From Hydrogenophaga sp. (lineage in GTDB: Bacteria > Pseudomonadota > Gammaproteobacteria > Burkholderiales > Burkholderiaceae_C), in the NCBI RefSeq assembly GCF_018780385.1, contig NZ_JADMJO010000003.1:496001-560000 (forward strand): a stretch of DNA of 64,000 bases. Reading direction: 5' to 3'. The notes beneath the pieces were generated by a model. That model saw only the letters and a list, made by a program, of their open reading frames with translations. It did not search any database and was not told the DNA's origin. The stretch's first letter is position 1; every line of letters begins with the position of its first letter. This document shows, piece after piece, positions 23,579 through 33,128 of the stretch. The translations under genes and the position numbers were made by a program.

Positions 23579-23614
23579 TCACACTAGGCGCATGTGTGCA
23601 CAACTCTCTCGAAC

Positions 23615-24883
23615 ATGAAATCGGGCCTGAACTTTCTGGTGGCGGCCAAACGCTGCGAAATCGCCGAGCTGCAGCAGCTCGCGCTCACCAGTGCGTTGGT
23701 GAATGTGACCGGGCGTCTGGTGCATGCCCTGCAGCGCGAGCGAGGCCTGTCCAACCTGTTTCTCGGCTCACAGGGCCATCAGTTTGGCGAGATGCGCACG
23801 AACCAGATCAGGGAATCCCGGCAGATTGAAACTGAACTGCGCGCCTGCTTTGACGAGCTGGACACCGAGTCGGCCCTGGTGGGCAACGGCGCTCGCCTGT
23901 TCAGTCGCATCGCCTACGTGCTGCACGGGCTGGATGCGCTCGACGGTTTGCGCTCGTGCGTGCAGGCGCTGCAATGGACGACCCAGCAGGCCACCGAAGC
24001 CTATGTGCGGCTGATCTCGGGCCTGCTGGCCGTGGTGTTCGAAGCGGCGGACACCGCCAGCGATCCCGAGATCTCACGCTTGCTGGTGGCCTTGTTCAAC
24101 TTCATGCAAGGCAAGGAGTTCGCCGGCCAGGAGCGTGCGGCCGGGTCGGCGCTGTTCGCCGGGGGGCGCGCCGAGGCGGGCGACCAGCAGCGTCTGCTGC
24201 ACCTGATCGAGTCGCAGGAACGCTGCCTGGAGGTGTTCATCGAGTTTTCGAAAGCCCAGGCGGTGGAGCTGTGGCATGCCACCCAGGCCAGCGCCACACT
24301 GGCCGAGCTGGAACGGCTGCGCCGCGTGCTGTGCACCGCCGCCCACGGCTCACCGCTCAATGCCCAGATGAGCCAGGCGTGGTTCGACTGCTGCAGCCGG
24401 CGCATTGACCGCATGAAAACGGTGGAGGAGCGTCTGGCGCTGGACTTGTTGCAAGCCTGCGAGCAGAAGATCGTCGCGGCCCATGCCGAGCTGAACAGTT
24501 TTCACGCGCTGCAAACAGCCCCCGCCACCGAGGCGGACGTTCTGTCGTTCTTCCGGGCGCCGAACGCTCGGGACAGCAGCGGTTTCGGCACCGGCACCCA
24601 GAGTTACGGCCTTCACCTGGAGCGCTCGATCCTGGAACTGGTGCAGGAGCAGGCGCGGCGCCTGCAGACCATGAGCGAGGAGCTCGACACCGTGCGGGCC
24701 AGCCTCAACGAGCGCAAGCTGATCGAGCGCGCCAAGGGTCTGCTGATGGCACACCGCCACCTCAGCGAGGAAGACGCCCACAAGACCATCCGCCAGATGG
24801 CCATGAACCAGAACCGCCGGCTGATCGAGGTGGCCGAGGCCGTGCTGGCCATGGCCGACGTGCTGCCCGATCGGCAACGCTGA
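23615..24883 (+). CDS. nasR: NasR-like nitrate/nitrite-sensing antiterminator (NIT + ANTAR)
   Basis: 422-aa cytoplasmic regulator. The N-terminal two thirds (about 25-260) is an all-helical NIT domain with the typical motif LVHALQRERGLSNLFLGS; this family binds nitrate/nitrite in Klebsiella NasR. The C-terminus (about 360-415: LNERKLIERAKGLLMAHRHLSEEDAHKTIRQMAM) is an ANTAR domain that binds paired hexaloop RNA hairpins to block transcription termination. The gene is directly upstream of the nrt operon, whose leader contains such hairpins. The start ATG was chosen from the sigma-54 promoter position; no strong Shine-Dalgarno sequence is seen. Confidence 0.88.
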   Translation: MKSGLNFLVAAKRCEIAELQQLALTSALVNVTGRLVHALQRERGLSNLFLGSQGHQFGEMRTNQIRESRQIETELRACFDELDTESALVGNGARLFSRIAYVLHGLDALDGLRSCVQALQWTTQQATEAYVRLISGLLAVVFEAADTASDPEISRLLVALFNFMQGKEFAGQERAAGSALFAGGRAEAGDQQRLLHLIESQERCLEVFIEFSKAQAVELWHATQASATLAELERLRRVLCTAAHGSPLNAQMSQAWFDCCSRRIDRMKTVEERLALDLLQACEQKIVAAHAELNSFHALQTAPATEADVLSFFRAPNARDSSGFGTGTQSYGLHLERSILELVQEQARRLQTMSEELDTVRASLNERKLIERAKGLLMAHRHLSEEDAHKTIRQMAMNQNRRLIEVAEAVLAMADVLPDRQR

Positions 24884-25061: not shown

Positions 25062-25077
25062 TGGCACACAAACTGCT
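25062..25077 (+). promoter_or_regulatory. Sigma-54 (-24/-12) promoter of the nrt operon
   Basis: TGGCAC-ACAAA-CTGCT keeps the GG and GC dinucleotides at the exact sigma-54 spacing. The predicted transcription start is about 25088, only a few bases before the first ANTAR-type hairpin. Two NtrC-like sites lie 145-180 bases upstream. A near-match to an IHF site (AATCAA-N5-TTG, spacer one base long) lies between them. Confidence 0.7.
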
Positions 25078-25093
25078 GTAAGCAAGACAAAGC

Positions 25094-25203
25094 GATTCGA
25101 GCCAACGGCGGCCCGGGTTTCGACAGTCTCCCCGACACGAGGACAACGGCGTCCATTTCCGGCTTGCGAAGCACAGCCACGGAAATGGGCGCCGTTGTGT
25201 TTT
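25094..25203 (+). promoter_or_regulatory. ANTAR-type dual-hexaloop leader and attenuator of the nrt operon
   Basis: Hairpin P1 (25094-25119) has the hexaloop AACGGC on a stem GAGCC/GGCCC with one A-C mismatch. Hairpin P2 (25141-25154) is GGAC-AACGGC-GTCC. Both loops have A at position 1 and G at position 4, as required for ANTAR RNA ligands. P2 overlaps the 5' arm of a 19-bp hairpin (25143-25161 with 25180-25198, one G-U) followed by TTTT, so P2 and the terminator-like stem are mutually exclusive. The inferred role is nitrate-dependent antitermination by the NasR-like or NasT-like protein. Confidence 0.8.
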
Positions 25204-25238
25204 GGGGCACCGATTTTTTAATCAGCAAGGAGTTGGAC

Positions 25239-26537
25239 ATGAACGCAGACACCACCGGCGCAACCGTTCCCCACGCCGCGACCGACACGACCACCGACAC
25301 CGCAGCGGCTTCGCGGCGCGACTTCATCAAGAAAAGCACCGCCATCGGCGGCGCCGCCTTCTTCTCCACGCTGGGTCACAGTGGCGTGTGGGCGGCCGGC
25401 TCCGATGCTCCCGAAAAGACCGAAGTCAAGATTGGCTTCATCCCGCTGACCGACTGCGCCAGCGTGGTGATGGCCGCTGAGCTCGGCATCGACAAGAAGT
25501 ACGGCGTGAAGATCGTGCCGACCAAGGAAGCCAGTTGGGCCGGTGTGCGCGACAAACTGGTCAATGGCGAACTCGACATGGCGCACGTGCTCTACGGCCT
25601 GATCTACGGCCTGCAGCTGGGCACCGCTGGCCCCAAGAAGGACATGGCGATCCTGATGAACCTGCAGCAGAACGGCCAGGCCATCACGCTGTCGAAGAAG
25701 CTCGCCGAAAAAGGCGCTGTGGACGGCCCCTCGCTCGCCAAATTGATGGCCAGCGAGAAGCGCGAATACACCTTCGCCCAGACCTTCCCCACCGGCACCC
25801 ACGCCATGTGGCTCTACTACTGGCTGGCCGCCGCCGGCATCGATCCGATGAAGGACGCGCGCGCCATCGTGGTGCCGCCGCCGCAGATGGTGGCCAACAT
25901 GCGCGTGGGCAACATGGACGGCTTCTGCGTGGGCGAGCCCTGGAACCACCGCGCCATCATGGACGGCATCGGCATCACCGCCAACACCACCCAGGACATC
26001 TGGAAGGACCACCCCGAGAAGGTGCTGGGCACGACGGCCGACTTCGTGGCCAAGAACCCCAACACGGCGCGCGCCGTGACGGCCGCCATCCTGGAAGCCG
26101 GCAAGTGGATCGACGCCGGTCTGCAGAACAAGAACAAGATGGCCGAGACGATCGCCCAGCGCGCCTATGTGAACACCGGCGTGGACGCGATCAACCAGCG
26201 CATCCTGGGCCGCTACCAGAACGGCATGGGCAAGACCTGGGACGACCCCAACCACATGAAGTTCTTCAACGACGGCCTGGCGAACTTCCCCTACCTGAGC
26301 GACGGCATGTGGTTCCTCACGCAGCACAAGCGCTGGGGCTTGCTCAAGTCGCACCCCGACTACCTGGCCGTGGCCAAACAGGTCAACCGCATCGACATCT
26401 TCAAGCAGGCCGCAGCGGCCAGCAAGACCTCGTTGCCCAAGTCCGAAATGCGCAGCGCCAAGTTCATCGACGGCGTGGTGTGGGACGGCAAGGACCCGGC
26501 GAAATACGCCGACAGCTTCAAGATCAACGCGGCCTGA
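25239..26537 (+). CDS. nrtA: Nitrate ABC transporter substrate-binding protein (NrtA/NasF family)
   Basis: 432-aa NrtA/CmpA-family periplasmic nitrate-binding protein. A twin-arginine signal (ASRRDFIKKSTAIGGAAFFS) occupies residues about 25-52, so it is exported folded through Tat. The mature part (KIGFIPLTDCASVVMAAELG) and FCVGEPWNHRAI match the family. The ATG at 25239 follows AAGGAG; the track start at 25164 lies inside the attenuator. It is the first gene of nrtA-nrtB-nrtD, behind a sigma-54 promoter and ANTAR leader. Specificity for nitrate is inferred from context. Confidence 0.92.
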   Translation: MNADTTGATVPHAATDTTTDTAAASRRDFIKKSTAIGGAAFFSTLGHSGVWAAGSDAPEKTEVKIGFIPLTDCASVVMAAELGIDKKYGVKIVPTKEASWAGVRDKLVNGELDMAHVLYGLIYGLQLGTAGPKKDMAILMNLQQNGQAITLSKKLAEKGAVDGPSLAKLMASEKREYTFAQTFPTGTHAMWLYYWLAAAGIDPMKDARAIVVPPPQMVANMRVGNMDGFCVGEPWNHRAIMDGIGITANTTQDIWKDHPEKVLGTTADFVAKNPNTARAVTAAILEAGKWIDAGLQNKNKMAETIAQRAYVNTGVDAINQRILGRYQNGMGKTWDDPNHMKFFNDGLANFPYLSDGMWFLTQHKRWGLLKSHPDYLAVAKQVNRIDIFKQAAAASKTSLPKSEMRSAKFIDGVVWDGKDPAKYADSFKINAA

Positions 26538-26564: not shown

Positions 26565-27473
26565 ATGGTCAGCGCCGTCTTTCATTCGCCTCTGGAGGGG
26601 CTCGCCTCCACCAAGACCGAGCCGACGACCACCGCTGCGGCGGTGCCCCGGCCGGCGCCTGCACCGGTGGCGCAGGTCAAGCGCGGCCGGGACCTGCGCT
26701 TCCTCTGGACCAACGTCTTGCCACCCGTGCTGGGCCTGGTCTTCCTCATCGCCGTGTGGGCGGTGGTGGCTGGCACCGGTGCGAGCGGCATTCCCACACC
26801 GCTGGAGACCTGGAAACAGGCGATCGAGGTGTTCTCCGATCCGTTCTACCAGGTGGGCCCGAACGACCAGGGCGTGGGCTGGAACGTGCTCATGTCGCTG
26901 CAGCGCGTGGCCATCGGCTTCGGCCTGGCCGCAGCGGTGGGCATCCCCGCGGGCTTTGCCATCGGCCGCTTCGAGTTCTTGAGCCGCATGTTCAATCCGC
27001 TCATCAGCCTGCTGCGCCCGGTGTCCCCACTGGCCTGGCTGCCGATCGGTCTGCTGGTCTTCAAGGGCGCCAACCCGGCGGCCATCTGGACCATCTTCAT
27101 CTGCTCCATCTGGCCCATGATCATCAACACCGCGGTGGGCGTACAGCGCGTGCCGCAGGACTACATGAACGTGGCGCGGGTGCTCAATCTGAGCGAATGG
27201 AAGATCTTCACCAAGATCCTGTTCCCCGCCGTGCTGCCCTACCTGCTGACCGGCGTGCGCCTGGCGGTGGGCACGGCCTGGCTGGTGATCGTGGCCGCCG
27301 AGATGCTGACCGGCGGCGTGGGCATCGGTTTCTGGATCTGGGACGAGTGGAACAACCTCAATGTGGCCAGCATCATCATCGCGATCTTCGTGATCGGCAT
27401 CGTGGGCCTGGTGCTCGAATTCGGCCTCATCAAGCTGGCCACCCTGTTCACGTTTGAGGAAGTCAAATCATGA
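26565..27473 (+). CDS. nrtB: Nitrate ABC transporter permease
   Basis: 302-aa inner-membrane permease of the NrtB/SsuC family with about six helices. The EAA-type loop NVARVLNLSEWKIFTKILFPAVLPYLLTGVR, which docks the ATPase, is clear near residue 205. The first 45 residues are a soluble Ala/Pro-rich leader. It is 27 bases after nrtA and overlaps the ATPase gene by four bases (ATGA). Confidence 0.92.
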   Translation: MVSAVFHSPLEGLASTKTEPTTTAAAVPRPAPAPVAQVKRGRDLRFLWTNVLPPVLGLVFLIAVWAVVAGTGASGIPTPLETWKQAIEVFSDPFYQVGPNDQGVGWNVLMSLQRVAIGFGLAAAVGIPAGFAIGRFEFLSRMFNPLISLLRPVSPLAWLPIGLLVFKGANPAAIWTIFICSIWPMIINTAVGVQRVPQDYMNVARVLNLSEWKIFTKILFPAVLPYLLTGVRLAVGTAWLVIVAAEMLTGGVGIGFWIWDEWNNLNVASIIIAIFVIGIVGLVLEFGLIKLATLFTFEEVKS

Positions 27474-28276
27474 GTCATGCATCCAAATACATCGAGATTC
27501 AGGGCGTCGAACAGACCTTCAAGACCAAGAAGGGCAATTTTCCTGCGCTGCGCGACATCAACCTGGCGGTGGCCAAAGGCGAGTTCGTCACGCTGATCGG
27601 CCACTCGGGCTGCGGCAAGTCCACCTTGCTCAACCTCATCGCCGGCCTGACCGTGCCCACCAGCGGCGTGTTGATCTGCGCCGACAAGGAGATTGTCGGG
27701 CCCGGCCCAGAGCGCGCGGTGGTGTTCCAGAACCACTCACTGCTACCGTGGCTCACCTGCTTCGAAAACGTCTATCTGGCGGTCGAACGCGTGTTCTCGA
27801 CCACCGAGACCAAGGCACAGCTCAAGGCCCGCACCGAGGCCGCGCTGGCCATGGTGGGCCTCACGCCCGCCGCCCAGAAACGGCCCGGTGAAATCTCTGG
27901 CGGCATGAAGCAGCGCGTGGGCATCGCCCGCGCCCTGTCGATGGAACCCAAGGTCTTGCTGATGGACGAGCCCTTCGGCGCGCTCGACGCCCTTACCCGC
28001 GCCAAACTGCAGGACGAGCTGCTCGAGATCGTGGCGCGCACGCACAGCACAGTGGTCATGGTCACGCACGACGTGGACGAAGCCGTGCTGCTGTCCGACC
28101 GCATCGTGATGCTCACCAACGGACCGGCCGCCACCATCGGCGAAGTGCTCACCGTGGACCTGCCGCGCCCGCGCAACCGCGTGGCCCTGGCCGACGAACC
28201 GCGCTACCAGCAATGCCGCAAGGCGGTGATCGACTTCCTCTACACACGCCAGGCGCACGTCGAAAAAGTCGCCTGA
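27470..28276 (+). CDS. nrtD: Nitrate ABC transporter ATP-binding protein
   Basis: 268-aa single-domain ABC ATPase. Walker A GHSGCGKSTLLN, signature ISGGMKQRVGIARAL, Walker B VLLMDEPFGALDA and the H-loop VMVTHDVDEAV are intact. It is NrtD/NasD-like, lacking the extra substrate-binding domain of cyanobacterial NrtC. It completes the importer with nrtA and nrtB. Confidence 0.92.
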   Translation: MSHASKYIEIQGVEQTFKTKKGNFPALRDINLAVAKGEFVTLIGHSGCGKSTLLNLIAGLTVPTSGVLICADKEIVGPGPERAVVFQNHSLLPWLTCFENVYLAVERVFSTTETKAQLKARTEAALAMVGLTPAAQKRPGEISGGMKQRVGIARALSMEPKVLLMDEPFGALDALTRAKLQDELLEIVARTHSTVVMVTHDVDEAVLLSDRIVMLTNGPAATIGEVLTVDLPRPRNRVALADEPRYQQCRKAVIDFLYTRQAHVEKVA

Positions 28277-28299: not shown

Positions 28300-28314
28300 C
28301 GGCATGGAATTTGC
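28300..28314 (+). promoter_or_regulatory. Sigma-54 (-24/-12) promoter of narK
   Basis: CGGCAT-GGAAT-TTGC matches the sigma-54 consensus with correct spacing. The predicted start is about 28326, two bases before a hexaloop hairpin, the same layout as in the nrt leader. It lies in the nrtD-narK gap, so narK can be transcribed independently of nrt. Confidence 0.7.
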
Positions 28315-28327
28315 GTGGTGAAACGTC

Positions 28328-28379
28328 AAGGCTAACGACGGCCTTTCAGTTGCAACAGGCTGCCGGTTCCGGCGGTCTG
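28328..28379 (+). promoter_or_regulatory. Candidate ANTAR-type leader of narK
   Basis: P1 (28328-28345) is AAGGCT-AACGAC-GGCCTT, six pairs with one G-U closing pair and an A1/G4 hexaloop. Six bases later GCA-ACAGGC-TGC (28352-28363) gives a weak 3-bp P2, also with an A1/G4 loop. P2 overlaps a 10-bp hairpin (28356-28379, loop GTTC), so the two are exclusive. No U-tract follows that hairpin, so termination is less certain than in the nrt leader. Confidence 0.55.
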
Positions 28380-29695: not shown

Positions 29696-31453
29696 TTACT
29701 TCGGCAGAAACAGCAGCCAGTAGATCAACAACACATTGAACAAGGCGCTGAGACCCAGCAGCAGCTTCCACAGCATCGTCGGATCCCGCTGCAGCAGCGC
29801 CGATGCCGGCGGCATGGTCAGCGGTCGGGACGCACCGCGCTCCAGCGCCAGCAAAAACTCTTCCGCGGTCTCGAAGCGCAGCGACTGGTCGCGCGCCACG
29901 GCCTTCTGCACCACATGGTCCAGCCAGATCGGCACCTCGGGGTTGTGGCGGCTGGGCGGCGTCGGGTCGCGGTAGTAGCGGCCCACCTGGTAGGGCAGCA
30001 CCTGGCCATAGGGCAAGCGGGCGGTGAGCAACTGATAGAGCGTCACGCCCAGCGCGAAAAGATCGCTCCGGGCATCGGGCAGCTCCTTCGTCTCGGCGTC
30101 GGAGGCACCGGTTGCCTGCCGCGTGTTGTAGCCCCACTGCTCGGGGTTCACATAGCTCGGCGTGCCGGCGTGCAGCCGTCGCATGCTCTCGGGCTCGCGC
30201 CCGCTCAGGGCCACACCGAGATCGAGCACGCGCAGCACGCCGTCCTCGCCCTGGTGCAGATTGGCGGGCTTGATGTCGCGGTGAATCACACCCTGGCGGT
30301 GCATGCGGCCGAGCACCCGCAGGGTCTGCATGGCAATCTGCACCGCCTGGCCGGGCGCGAAGCGCTGTGACCGGTCCAGCATCTGCTGCAGGGTCTCGCC
30401 GCTGTGCCAGTCGTACAACAGGTAGTAGGCGCTGCGCGGCCGCTGCGTGGGCAGGCTCTGGTGCAGACACACCAGGTTGTCGGCCGCGCGCGAAGACTGC
30501 ATGCGCCGCGAGAGCCAGGCCTCGTGCGCGAGCATGGCGCGCTCGTCCTGGTCGTGCGCGCGCGCGGGGTGCAGGGTTTTGAGCGCATACAGCGTCTGCG
30601 TGGCGGGATCGCGCACCTGGTAGAGCAGGTTGATGCCGTTGTCGGCCACCGGCGCAGTGACGACGAAGCCGTCGATCAGGTCGCCCACCTTCAGGCGCGG
30701 CGCCATGGGCAGGGCGTGGGCCAGGCGGCTGGCGTCCTCCAGGTTGGGGTCGAGCAGGCCCAGCACACGCACCACCATGGCGGTGAGGTTGTCGTCGCTG
30801 CCCGCGGCCAGCGCCGCCTCCACCAACCGTTCGCAAGCGACCTGCGCTCGCACGGAAGGGTCGGCGCAGTCGGCGAGACGGCGCTCCGGCAACTTGCCAT
30901 GGACGCCGTCGGTGAGCAGCACGAAAATGTCGCCCACCTGCAGGTCGCCCTGCACATAGTCGACCACGAGGTGGTCTTCCAGGCCCACCGCGCGCAGCAG
31001 CTGGTGCCGCAGGTCGGGGTGGTTGACCACGTGGTCGTGCGTGAGGCGCAGCGTCTGGCCCTCGCGCAGCAAGTAGCAACGCGAATCGCCCACGTGGGCC
31101 AGCGTGTAGGACTGACCGCGCAGCACCAGCGCGGTGAGCGTGGTCAGGCCCATGGCGGGCTGGCGGCTTCGGTTGAGCCCGGCCAGCCAGGCGTTCTGCG
31201 CGCCGATGATGCGGTCCAGCGCCACCGTGGTGTCCCAGGTTTCGGGCGTGCTGTGGTAGTCGCGCACCAGGCTGGTCACCGTGGTCTGGGCCGCTTCCCG
31301 CCCCATGCCGCCGGTGCTCACTCCGTCGGCAATGGCCACGATGGAGCCCATGTCCTCTTGTCCCTCGGGCGGCAGCATGGCGGCGCAGAAGTCTTCGTTG
31401 TTCTCCTTGCGGCCCGCCAGACACACAAAGCCGATGTCGATGTCAAAGGCCAT
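29696..31453 (-). CDS. PP2C-type phosphatase / Ser-Thr protein kinase fusion with C-terminal membrane anchor
   Basis: 585 aa. Residues about 1-240 form a PPM/PP2C phosphatase with metal-binding motifs AIADGVSTGG, HVGDSRCYL, LLTDGV and GSDDNLTA. Residues about 265-535 form a Hanks-type kinase: the lysine of YALKTL, catalytic HRDIKPANL, DLG in place of DFG (VLDLGVALS), and GTPSYVNPEQ replacing APE. A canonical glycine-rich loop is not evident. A single helix (LLLGLSALFNVLLIYWLLF) ends the protein, probably tethering it to the inner membrane. It follows the NasT-like gene by 6 bases, so the two form an operon. The substrate is unknown; a role in nitrate control is inferred from context. Confidence 0.88.
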   Translation of the reverse strand: MAFDIDIGFVCLAGRKENNEDFCAAMLPPEGQEDMGSIVAIADGVSTGGMGREAAQTTVTSLVRDYHSTPETWDTTVALDRIIGAQNAWLAGLNRSRQPAMGLTTLTALVLRGQSYTLAHVGDSRCYLLREGQTLRLTHDHVVNHPDLRHQLLRAVGLEDHLVVDYVQGDLQVGDIFVLLTDGVHGKLPERRLADCADPSVRAQVACERLVEAALAAGSDDNLTAMVVRVLGLLDPNLEDASRLAHALPMAPRLKVGDLIDGFVVTAPVADNGINLLYQVRDPATQTLYALKTLHPARAHDQDERAMLAHEAWLSRRMQSSRAADNLVCLHQSLPTQRPRSAYYLLYDWHSGETLQQMLDRSQRFAPGQAVQIAMQTLRVLGRMHRQGVIHRDIKPANLHQGEDGVLRVLDLGVALSGREPESMRRLHAGTPSYVNPEQWGYNTRQATGASDAETKELPDARSDLFALGVTLYQLLTARLPYGQVLPYQVGRYYRDPTPPSRHNPEVPIWLDHVVQKAVARDQSLRFETAEEFLLALERGASRPLTMPPASALLQRDPTMLWKLLLGLSALFNVLLIYWLLFLPK

Positions 31454-31459
31454 GCGGCG

Positions 31460-32755
31460 TCACCCCATCAGCATCTGCATGCTGCGTTCGTATTCGGCCG
31501 AGAGCTGCTCGAAGGCTTCAAGCAGGCTTTCGCTGGCCGCCGCCAGGCCTTCGAGCCGCAGCAGCCGGTCGCGACCCGCGGGGCGCTGGATGTGGGCGGC
31601 ACCGGCGAGCACCTGCTCCCATTCCAGGGCCGCGGCGTCGAGCGTGCGGCGGATCTCGGGTGTGGACAGGGGCAGGCCGTTGAGCAAGGCCAGACCCGAC
31701 TCGAATTCCCGCTGCGCCCCGACCAGGGCAGCGTCACTGCCCGGCGCGCGCGCATCGGCCTCCACCAGCTCCATCAGCGCGCACTTGGCAAAACGCTGGG
31801 ACAGCATGCGCTGGCGCCCGGCGATGTTGAGCAGCTTCAGCGGCGGGGCCGAGCCCGCGCTCTCCAGGCTCGCCGTCAGGCGCTCGGCTTCCTGCAGCAG
31901 GCGCTCGGCGAGTTCGTCCACCGGCAGCACCTGCGCTGCGGCGGGCTTGCCCTTGAGGGCTGGCTTGAGGCGTTGCCAGGTGGCTTCCACCTGGGCCAGC
32001 AGGTCGCCGAAGGTGGGGGCCGAGAGTGTCTTGCCCAAGAGCGCGATGTTGGCGTCGATGCGCTGGATCGAATCGTCCAGCAGCGCCTGCTGCTGGCGCG
32101 TCTGCACCTCGGCCAGACGCAACAGGTACAGCTTGACCAGGCGCTGCGAGAGCATGCGCAACTGCCCGGCCCGGTTCACCCCTTCGGCGAAATGGGCCGA
32201 CTGGATGATGTGCTGCGACACCTGGCCCAAGCGCTGGTTGCTGTGCATGGAGGCGGTGCGCAGGATCTGGAAGGCGTCGTCGTCGGACACCTGCCGCGCG
32301 CGCATCAGGATGCCCTTGGCGCGCTCCACCATCTTGCGGTCCTCGAAACGCTGGGACACATCGCGCAGTTGCTCCTGCAGCGCCTGCTCGCGCCGAAAGC
32401 GCGCCTGCGCGAGGTGGATGAGCGGGCGCAGGCGCTGCGCTCCGTAACCGTTGACCACATAAGCGTGGATGCCGGCGGCCATGGCCTGTTCGATGTGGCC
32501 GGCATCGCTGTCGGTGGTGAACACGATCACCGGGCAGGGTGCGGTGTCGGCCAGCGCCTGCGTGGCCTTGAACAGTGCATCCGCGGGCGCCGACACCTCA
32601 CCGATCACCAGATCTGGTGCATGGCGCACGACGCCCTGCACCAGTTTGCTGCAGCCCTCTTCCTGCGCCAGGACATCGATGCCCATGGCCTCCAGGTCGA
32701 CTGCGAGGGGCAGCGTGGTGTGGGGACCGCTCCGAAAAACCAGCACAGATGTCAT
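31460..32755 (-). CDS. NasT-like regulator: degenerate receiver + ANTAR + two PilJ-N (NarX-type) sensor modules
   Basis: 431 aa, about twice the length of NasT. Residues 1-125 resemble a response-regulator receiver, but the N-terminal acidic pair is missing (VLVFRSGPH) and the phospho-Asp position is Glu53 (VIGEVSAP). Residues about 138-187 are ANTAR (DRKMVERAKGILMRARQVSDDDAFQIL). Two PilJ-N-type four-helix modules follow, each with the NarX-like box: NRAGQLRMLSQRLVK (194-208) and NIAGRQRMLSQRFAK (310-324). No membrane segment is seen. The ATG at 32755 was chosen; the track extends into the divergent promoter region. It is divergent from nirB and probably controls RNA attenuation in response to nitrate or nitrite (inference). 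Confidence 0.85.
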   Translation of the reverse strand: MTSVLVFRSGPHTTLPLAVDLEAMGIDVLAQEEGCSKLVQGVVRHAPDLVIGEVSAPADALFKATQALADTAPCPVIVFTTDSDAGHIEQAMAAGIHAYVVNGYGAQRLRPLIHLAQARFRREQALQEQLRDVSQRFEDRKMVERAKGILMRARQVSDDDAFQILRTASMHSNQRLGQVSQHIIQSAHFAEGVNRAGQLRMLSQRLVKLYLLRLAEVQTRQQQALLDDSIQRIDANIALLGKTLSAPTFGDLLAQVEATWQRLKPALKGKPAAAQVLPVDELAERLLQEAERLTASLESAGSAPPLKLLNIAGRQRMLSQRFAKCALMELVEADARAPGSDAALVGAQREFESGLALLNGLPLSTPEIRRTLDAAALEWEQVLAGAAHIQRPAGRDRLLRLEGLAAASESLLEAFEQLSAEYERSMQMLMG

Positions 32756-32866: not shown

Positions 32867-32882
32867 TGGCACACGTTTTGCA
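32867..32882 (+). promoter_or_regulatory. Sigma-54 (-24/-12) promoter of the nirB operon
   Basis: TGGCAC-ACGTT-TTGCA is a full consensus match. The predicted start is about 32893, which coincides with the first stem-loop of the leader. It gives a leader of about 236 nt before nirB. Confidence 0.82.
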
Positions 32883-32891
32883 TGGTTCACC

Positions 32892-33035
32892 TCAGACGTG
32901 ACGAAGCGTCTGACCCCGACCGCAGTGTCGCGGGACTGCTCACAACGACGTGCGCAGCGAGACAACGGGGCCCGCCATGTGGCGCGCCTCAGCCCGGCTT
33001 CTCGGCCGGAACAACCGAATATCCCTGTCTTTTTT
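32892..33035 (+). promoter_or_regulatory. Candidate ANTAR-type leader of nirB
   Basis: Hairpin 1 (32892-32913) has a 7-bp stem TCAGACG/CGTCTGA plus a T-G pair closing GACGAA, which has G4 but not A1. Hairpin 2 (32936-32957) is CTGCTCAC-AACGAC-GTGCGCAG, eight positions with one T-C mismatch and an A1/G4 loop. Their 22-base separation resembles the nrt leader. Downstream, AGACA (32960) can pair with TGTCT just before TTTTTT (33030-33035), with GGG/CCC added across a bulge, giving a possible terminator that does not overlap hairpin 2 directly. Confidence 0.5.
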
Positions 33036-33076: not shown

Positions 33077-33091
33077 TGGCACGGGGTATGC
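33077..33091 (+). promoter_or_regulatory. Possible second sigma-54 promoter of nirB, downstream of the leader hairpins
   Basis: TGGCAC-GGGGT-ATGC has a perfect -24 half and GC at the right -12 spacing (first T of TTGC is A). The predicted start is about 33103, giving a 26-nt leader that would lack the ANTAR-type hairpins. Confidence 0.35.
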
Positions 33092-33128
33092 ACCTGACCC
33101 CTAGCGAATCACAACTGGAGTAGCCGCG

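Follow-up and report, generated by a model that had tools for sequence, protein, structure and literature searches.

The nitrate gene cluster

The 64,000-nucleotide stretch of DNA analysed here (the window) carries a nitrate gene cluster in the order tsaD (− strand), a NIT-ANTAR regulator gene, the leader under study, nrtA, nrtB, nrtC/D, narK, a PP2C/kinase gene (−), a REC-ANTAR-PilJ gene (−) and nirB. The host genome measures 5.4 Mb, and the nearest relatives of the window's nrtA are found in Hydrogenophaga (Comamonadaceae), with 96% identity to locus L001. The genes on which the argument turns are these:

23594..24883, + strand: NIT-ANTAR regulator, NasR-like, 429 aa (Pfam NIT 192.7 bits, ANTAR 69.8 bits)
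25239..26537, + strand: nrtA-like nitrate-binding protein, the target gene (Pfam NMT1_2, E 2e-102; adjoins nrtB/nrtC)
26565..27473, + strand: nrtB, nitrate ABC transporter permease (TIGR01183 above cut-off)
27470..28276, + strand: nrtC/D, nitrate ABC transporter ATPase (TIGR01184 above cut-off)
31460..32755, − strand: REC-ANTAR-PilJ(x2) fusion regulator, divergent from nirB (Pfam ANTAR 62.4 bits, PilJ 70.8 bits in two stretches)

A preliminary description of this DNA placed the leader between a NIT-ANTAR gene and its probable target operon, and the annotation bears this out, with a NasR-like gene directly upstream and nitrate ABC-transporter genes downstream. Along its length, the NIT-ANTAR protein aligns with the Klebsiella NasR structure 4AKK (E 1.1e-48). 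The nitrate pocket of NasR includes the helix 5 residues E175/R176 (PMC7496416), and the GQER nitrate-pocket motif is present in all 23 proteins compared (window and 22 relatives). The position corresponding to NasR W362, an aromatic residue needed for RNA binding, is occupied by His in the window's protein and in most of its clade, and by Tyr in others.

Three ANTAR proteins are encoded in the genome, two of them in the nitrate cluster. The third gene (L083, G000 C34) lies directly 3′ of a gene for an AmiC-like binding protein; it looks AmiR-like with no tie to nitrate, and the two are probably an amide sensor pair. The gene for a PP2C phosphatase-Ser/Thr kinase fusion (29696-31453, − strand) that sits within the nitrate cluster is also found beside narK in several relatives.

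Anatomy of the nrt leader

Between the regulator gene and nrtA, the following elements were delineated, all on the + strand:

25062..25077: sigma54-type promoter TGGCACACAAACTGCT (GG-N10-GC), exact pattern, predicted start at about 25088
25095..25118: P1 hairpin, core 25101-25112, loop AACGGC 25104-25109 (sequence, fold, covariation in relatives)
25113..25140: linker from P1 core to P2, 28 nt (22 nt with the lower P1 stem formed), which may hold a weak hairpin
25141..25154: P2 hairpin, loop AACGGC 25145-25150, the antiterminator half (sequence, fold, comparison with relatives)
25143..25198: terminator hairpin, 19-bp stem 25143-25161/25180-25198, excludes P2 (fold; six pairs changed on both sides)
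25200..25203: short T-tract TTTT after the stem, then GGGG (sequence; richer in relatives)
25227..25232: Shine-Dalgarno-like AAGGAG, outside the switch (sequence)

The two identical AACGGC hexaloops that had been claimed are confirmed on the sequence. Each is closed by a C:G pair (C25103-G25110 and C25144-G25151) that is invariant in 16 aligned leaders. The core stem of P1 pairs GCC 25101-25103 with GGC 25110-25112 and continues, beyond an A-C mismatch, into a lower stem (25095-25099/25114-25118), while the stem of P2 pairs GGAC 25141-25144 with GTCC 25151-25154. In several relatives a hairpin folds in the linker between P1 and P2, inconsistently.

The terminator-like stem, described earlier as 19 bp, has an unbroken run of 18 pairs in the minimum-energy fold and 19 if G25161-C25180 is paired, with one U-G pair, and the overlap of its 5′ arm with P2 is exact at positions 25143-25154, 12 common bases. 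The U-tract is short, as had also been noted, and the terminator at 25143-25203 was not called by a simple terminator scan. A second T run, TTTTTT at 25214-25219, could by speculation help termination. In relatives the stem runs straight into a longer U-tract, e.g. GTTTTGTTTTT; the tract is short in the window's clade. The sigma54 site is present in nearly all relatives at similar spacing to the hairpins. Besides the sigma54 promoter, the present analysis adds to the earlier account the 28-nt linker, a sub-threshold match to the narK RNA of Rfam, and ANTAR-like leaders at narK and nirB.

Conservation, covariation and chance

Within the window, hairpin pairs were sought with A1/G4 hexaloops, a C:G closing pair and at least three G-C pairs. 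The leader pair is unique on the + strand, one weak pair occurs on the − strand, and shuffled windows yield 0.8 such pairs per strand. When the leader itself was shuffled, any pair arose in 4 of 5000 shuffles and an identical-loop pair in none of the 5000. The 129-nt leader stretch is furthermore far more stable than its own shuffles (z −4.2).

The specificity of the loop letters is most evident across relatives. Each locus in a set of 80 nrtA loci was searched for two hexaloop hairpins closed by C:G and separated by 14-44 nt, with all letter choices at loop positions 1 and 4. The A1/G4 choice gave 74 pairs in the nrtA leaders, and each of the 15 other choices gave 0-1, although several of these controls are commoner elsewhere in the nrtA loci.

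Covariation was assessed in 16 leaders of the window's type, window included. Changes on both sides were observed at five of the seven pairs of P1 and at six of the 19 terminator pairs, and the covariation score lay above all 500 shuffles and all slid versions; about 90% of cells were paired, falling to 30-50% when the partners were slid. P2 is invariant across the 16 leaders and is therefore uninformative by itself on covariation.

A covariance model (R2) built from 15 relatives, with the window excluded, matched the window leader with 52.8 bits (E 8.9e-12 over the 5.4-Mb genome), clearly the top match in the genome, and R2 matches were found in 30 of 101 family genomes. The runner-up in the genome (L103, 24.5 bits) falls within an open reading frame, and we regard it as a chance match. 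The short-linker model R1 gave the window 13.9 bits, which at a genome-wide E of 3.0 is not separated from chance, and linker length therefore matters in model searches.

Comparison with known ANTAR systems

Nitrate and nitrite transporter genes preceded by ANTAR elements have already been reported (PMC3369931), so the kind is known, and the nrt leader is very probably a new example of the known ANTAR antiterminator class. As generally modelled for ANTAR elements, P2 and the terminator overlap (PMC3369931). NasR binds the two-hairpin RNA only with nitrate or nitrite and prefers C:G-closed A1/G4 hexaloops, the C:G closing pair being the NasR SELEX consensus (PMC7496416).

The system of Klebsiella oxytoca resembles the present one in pairing a NIT-ANTAR one-component regulator, NasR, with a nitrate assimilation operon, and in a nasF leader with two A1/G4 hexaloop hairpins of which the second overlaps the terminator. 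Differences lie in the window's target, the nrtABC uptake operon, in a 28-nt linker and in a His at the position of the ANTAR aromatic; unlike nasF, the window leader follows a sigma54 promoter and lies directly after the regulator gene, beside tsaD. The eut leaders controlled by EutV in Enterococcus and Listeria share the two-hairpin ANTAR target with P2 overlapping the terminator, but belong to a two-component ethanolamine system and have linkers of 5-12 nt; in these leaders 14 nt already hurts induction (PMC3369931). The curation range for the ANTAR linker is 2-25 nt (PMC8164766), against which the window's linker measures 28 nt on the core stems and 22 nt with the lower P1 stem. In the NasS-NasT/nasA system of Paracoccus, a REC-ANTAR protein binds the leader RNA under nitrate, and REC-ANTAR fills the regulator slot in many relatives of the window, whose own slot holds NIT-ANTAR instead. 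Where the neighbours of REC-ANTAR genes were checked in relatives, none resembled NasS.

The published ANTAR motif has no entry in Rfam, where the nearest family is the narK RNA (RF03032). The model of this RNA opens with an apparent sigma54 promoter and contains a GCC-AACGGC-GGC hairpin, and its 3′ end, CGACAAAGACGUCG, reads as a P2 hexaloop. Against the window it scores 19.5 bits, where the gathering cut-off is 43.2, and the alignment places 17 inserted nt in the linker; none of 12 relatives reached the cut-off. At the gathering threshold, Rfam reported only a single tRNA over the window; all leader matches, narK RNA included, fell under the cut-off.

The proposed switch and its alternatives

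With the terminator the leader folds to −60.2 kcal/mol, as against −40.7 kcal/mol with P1 and P2 forced. Folding with and without P2, a check that the preliminary description had proposed, thus leaves the terminator state more stable by 19.5 kcal/mol; therefore termination is expected to be the default, and something must hold P2 during transcription.

From its sequence, the nrt leader is very probably a nitrate-responsive, NasR-type ANTAR antiterminator of nrtABC, with binding and antitermination as predictions. The observed basis of this reading is sequence, conservation, covariation, mutually exclusive pairing, gene context and regulator homology. The antitermination layout proposed at the outset is upheld by the conserved A1/G4 loops, the covarying P1 and exclusive terminator, the match to a model built free of the window, the NasR-like neighbour and the nrt genes. 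Homology and anatomy point in turn to nitrate binding, RNA binding and an effect on termination, which we infer on these grounds.

In such a switch, sigma54-RNA polymerase would start the transcript near 25088, presumably under nitrogen limitation via NtrC. A search for NtrC enhancers in the window gave three weak matches versus 6.4 expected by chance, none of them by the nrt promoter. Without nitrate the leader would fold into the strong terminator and most transcripts would be expected to end near 25203. With nitrate present, the NIT-ANTAR dimer from the adjacent gene would bind it via the NIT domain, freeing the ANTAR domains to take hold of P1 and P2 of the nascent RNA by their AACGGC loops. 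Once P2 was held closed, the terminator would lose 12 nt of its 5′ arm and the polymerase could continue into nrtA.

Several observations stand against this reading. The U-tract right after the stem is only TTTT and escaped the simple scan, the linker exceeds the range of the eut leaders, the counterpart of W362 is His in most of the clade, the narK RNA match is far under its cut-off, and R1 scores the window low. As to the linker, the two loops stand at a distance of 39-43 nt from each other, in the window as in all 15 relatives of its type; the long linker is therefore a constant of the group, and because of this constancy we argue that it works here.

Three other explanations were weighed. 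The same RNA could be an ANTAR antiterminator whose working regulator is the REC-ANTAR-PilJ protein (31460-32755), alone or together with NIT-ANTAR. The presence of two of the genome's three ANTAR proteins in the nitrate cluster, and of the same RNA element beside a REC-ANTAR protein in relatives, is in keeping with this. On the other side, the nrt leader adjoins NIT-ANTAR in all sampled Hydrogenophaga loci, and the REC-ANTAR-PilJ gene has a divergent leader of its own, laid out differently with about 45 nt between the loops, and relatives in only 40 of 301 family genomes, so that we consider this role unlikely. That the ANTAR-bound leader acts on translation or Rho-dependent termination in place of intrinsic termination would suit the weak U-tract in the window's clade; it is rendered distinctly improbable by a Shine-Dalgarno sequence (25227-25232) that lies outside the structure and by the same stem leading straight into a long U-tract in most relatives.

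The long hairpin might finally be an ordinary unregulated terminator or 3′-end structure of the NIT-ANTAR gene, with the small loops incidental. A same-strand gene does lie upstream, and the hairpin is strong and followed by a T run, but it is situated some 260 nt beyond the stop codon, 3′ of a sigma54 promoter directed at nrtA, the loop letters are conserved over 80 loci, and P1 covaries though it lies outside the terminator. We give this explanation hardly any credence, and nitrate-responsive antitermination by the NIT-ANTAR protein is retained as the preferred reading.

A second type of ANTAR-like leader

Two further leaders of the cluster carry ANTAR-like hexaloops:

32867..32956, + strand: nirB leader, with a sigma54 promoter (32867-32882) and loops GACGAA (32900-32905) and AACGAC (32944-32949)
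28300..28345, + strand: narK leader, with a sigma54-like site CGGCATGGAATTTGCG (28300-28315) and the hairpin aaggct[AACGAC]ggcctt (loop 28334-28339)

Most of 30 REC-ANTAR-PilJ genes compared across the family have nirB or narK as their divergent neighbour, and nearly all of the divergent leaders start with a sigma54 site. In 25 aligned divergent leaders the hairpins are about 45 nt apart, the loops mostly have R1 and always G4, and both hairpins carry both-side changes. When both loops and a sigma54-like site were demanded, the A1/G4 choice was found in 11 loci versus 0-7 for the other choices; the 7 belong to G/G, and the A1 rule is therefore relaxed in leaders linked to REC-ANTAR-PilJ. Judged by eye, a U-tract terminator overlapping the second hairpin occurs in few of the divergent leaders. 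No description of an ANTAR-PilJ fusion was found among the papers searched.

The narK-leader hairpin is the same in loci L002 and L005, and a GC-rich hairpin without a U-tract follows it. A second sigma54-like match, TGGCACGGGGTATGCA, is located at 33077-33092, 37 nt before nirB, and is also present in the same-genus locus L120.

We tentatively entertain, at somewhat less than even confidence, a cluster with two separate ANTAR circuits. In one, NIT-ANTAR would act on the terminator-type leader of nrtA. In the other, REC-ANTAR-PilJ, apparently an undescribed one-component design of nitrate sensor, would act on leaders of a second RNA class, those of nirB and perhaps narK, in which R1/G4 hexaloop hairpins stand fixed about 45 nt apart with a middle stem, usually without an obvious overlapping U-tract terminator. 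This nirB-type class may act differently, on translation or elongation. The REC-ANTAR-PilJ/nirB leader circuit is a lead and not a demonstrated system.

Leader variants and regulator exchange

Most other leaders of the nrtA set have a loop distance of 26-32 nt. Many of these carry a third hexaloop hairpin (P0), gacc[......]ggtc, at the predicted 5′ end, with an A1/G4 loop in about half of the cases as tallied by eye. Tandem P0-P1-P2 hexaloops are seen in L009, L014, L018, L022, L024, L031, L046, L059, L067, L077 and others. In the Limnohabitans type (L011, L019) the hexaloops of the nrtA leader are only 17 nt apart with a linker of about 2 nt, as though the hairpin in the middle had dropped out. 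The P2 loop starts with G (GAAGGC or GACGGC) in five loci (L015, L035, L043, L076 and L078), and position 1 is therefore not absolute.

The slot between tsaD and nrtA is occupied in the 80 loci by NIT-ANTAR in 23 (window included) and by NasT-like REC-ANTAR in 48. The tsaD gene could be observed in 18 of the NIT-ANTAR and 27 of the REC-ANTAR loci; the remaining loci are flanked by a different gene or lie on a short contig. The regulator label requires six changes on the nrtA tree, at least three of them on well-supported branches, and the RNA element is retained in nearly all loci despite this exchange. Long spacing accompanies NIT-ANTAR in 16 of 22 loci and REC-ANTAR in 2 of 30, an association that comes down to three independent contrasts on supported branches and is not significant.

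The nrt leader provides a clean, well-controlled example of a probable ANTAR target from the Burkholderiales that is not in Rfam above threshold. The combination of a sigma54 promoter with a presumed nitrate-gated terminator suggests an AND gate of low nitrogen and nitrate present. The relatives constitute a natural experiment in which the RNA target is held constant while the adjacent regulator is swapped between NIT-ANTAR and REC-ANTAR at one slot, and in which co-adaptation of regulator and spacing becomes testable.
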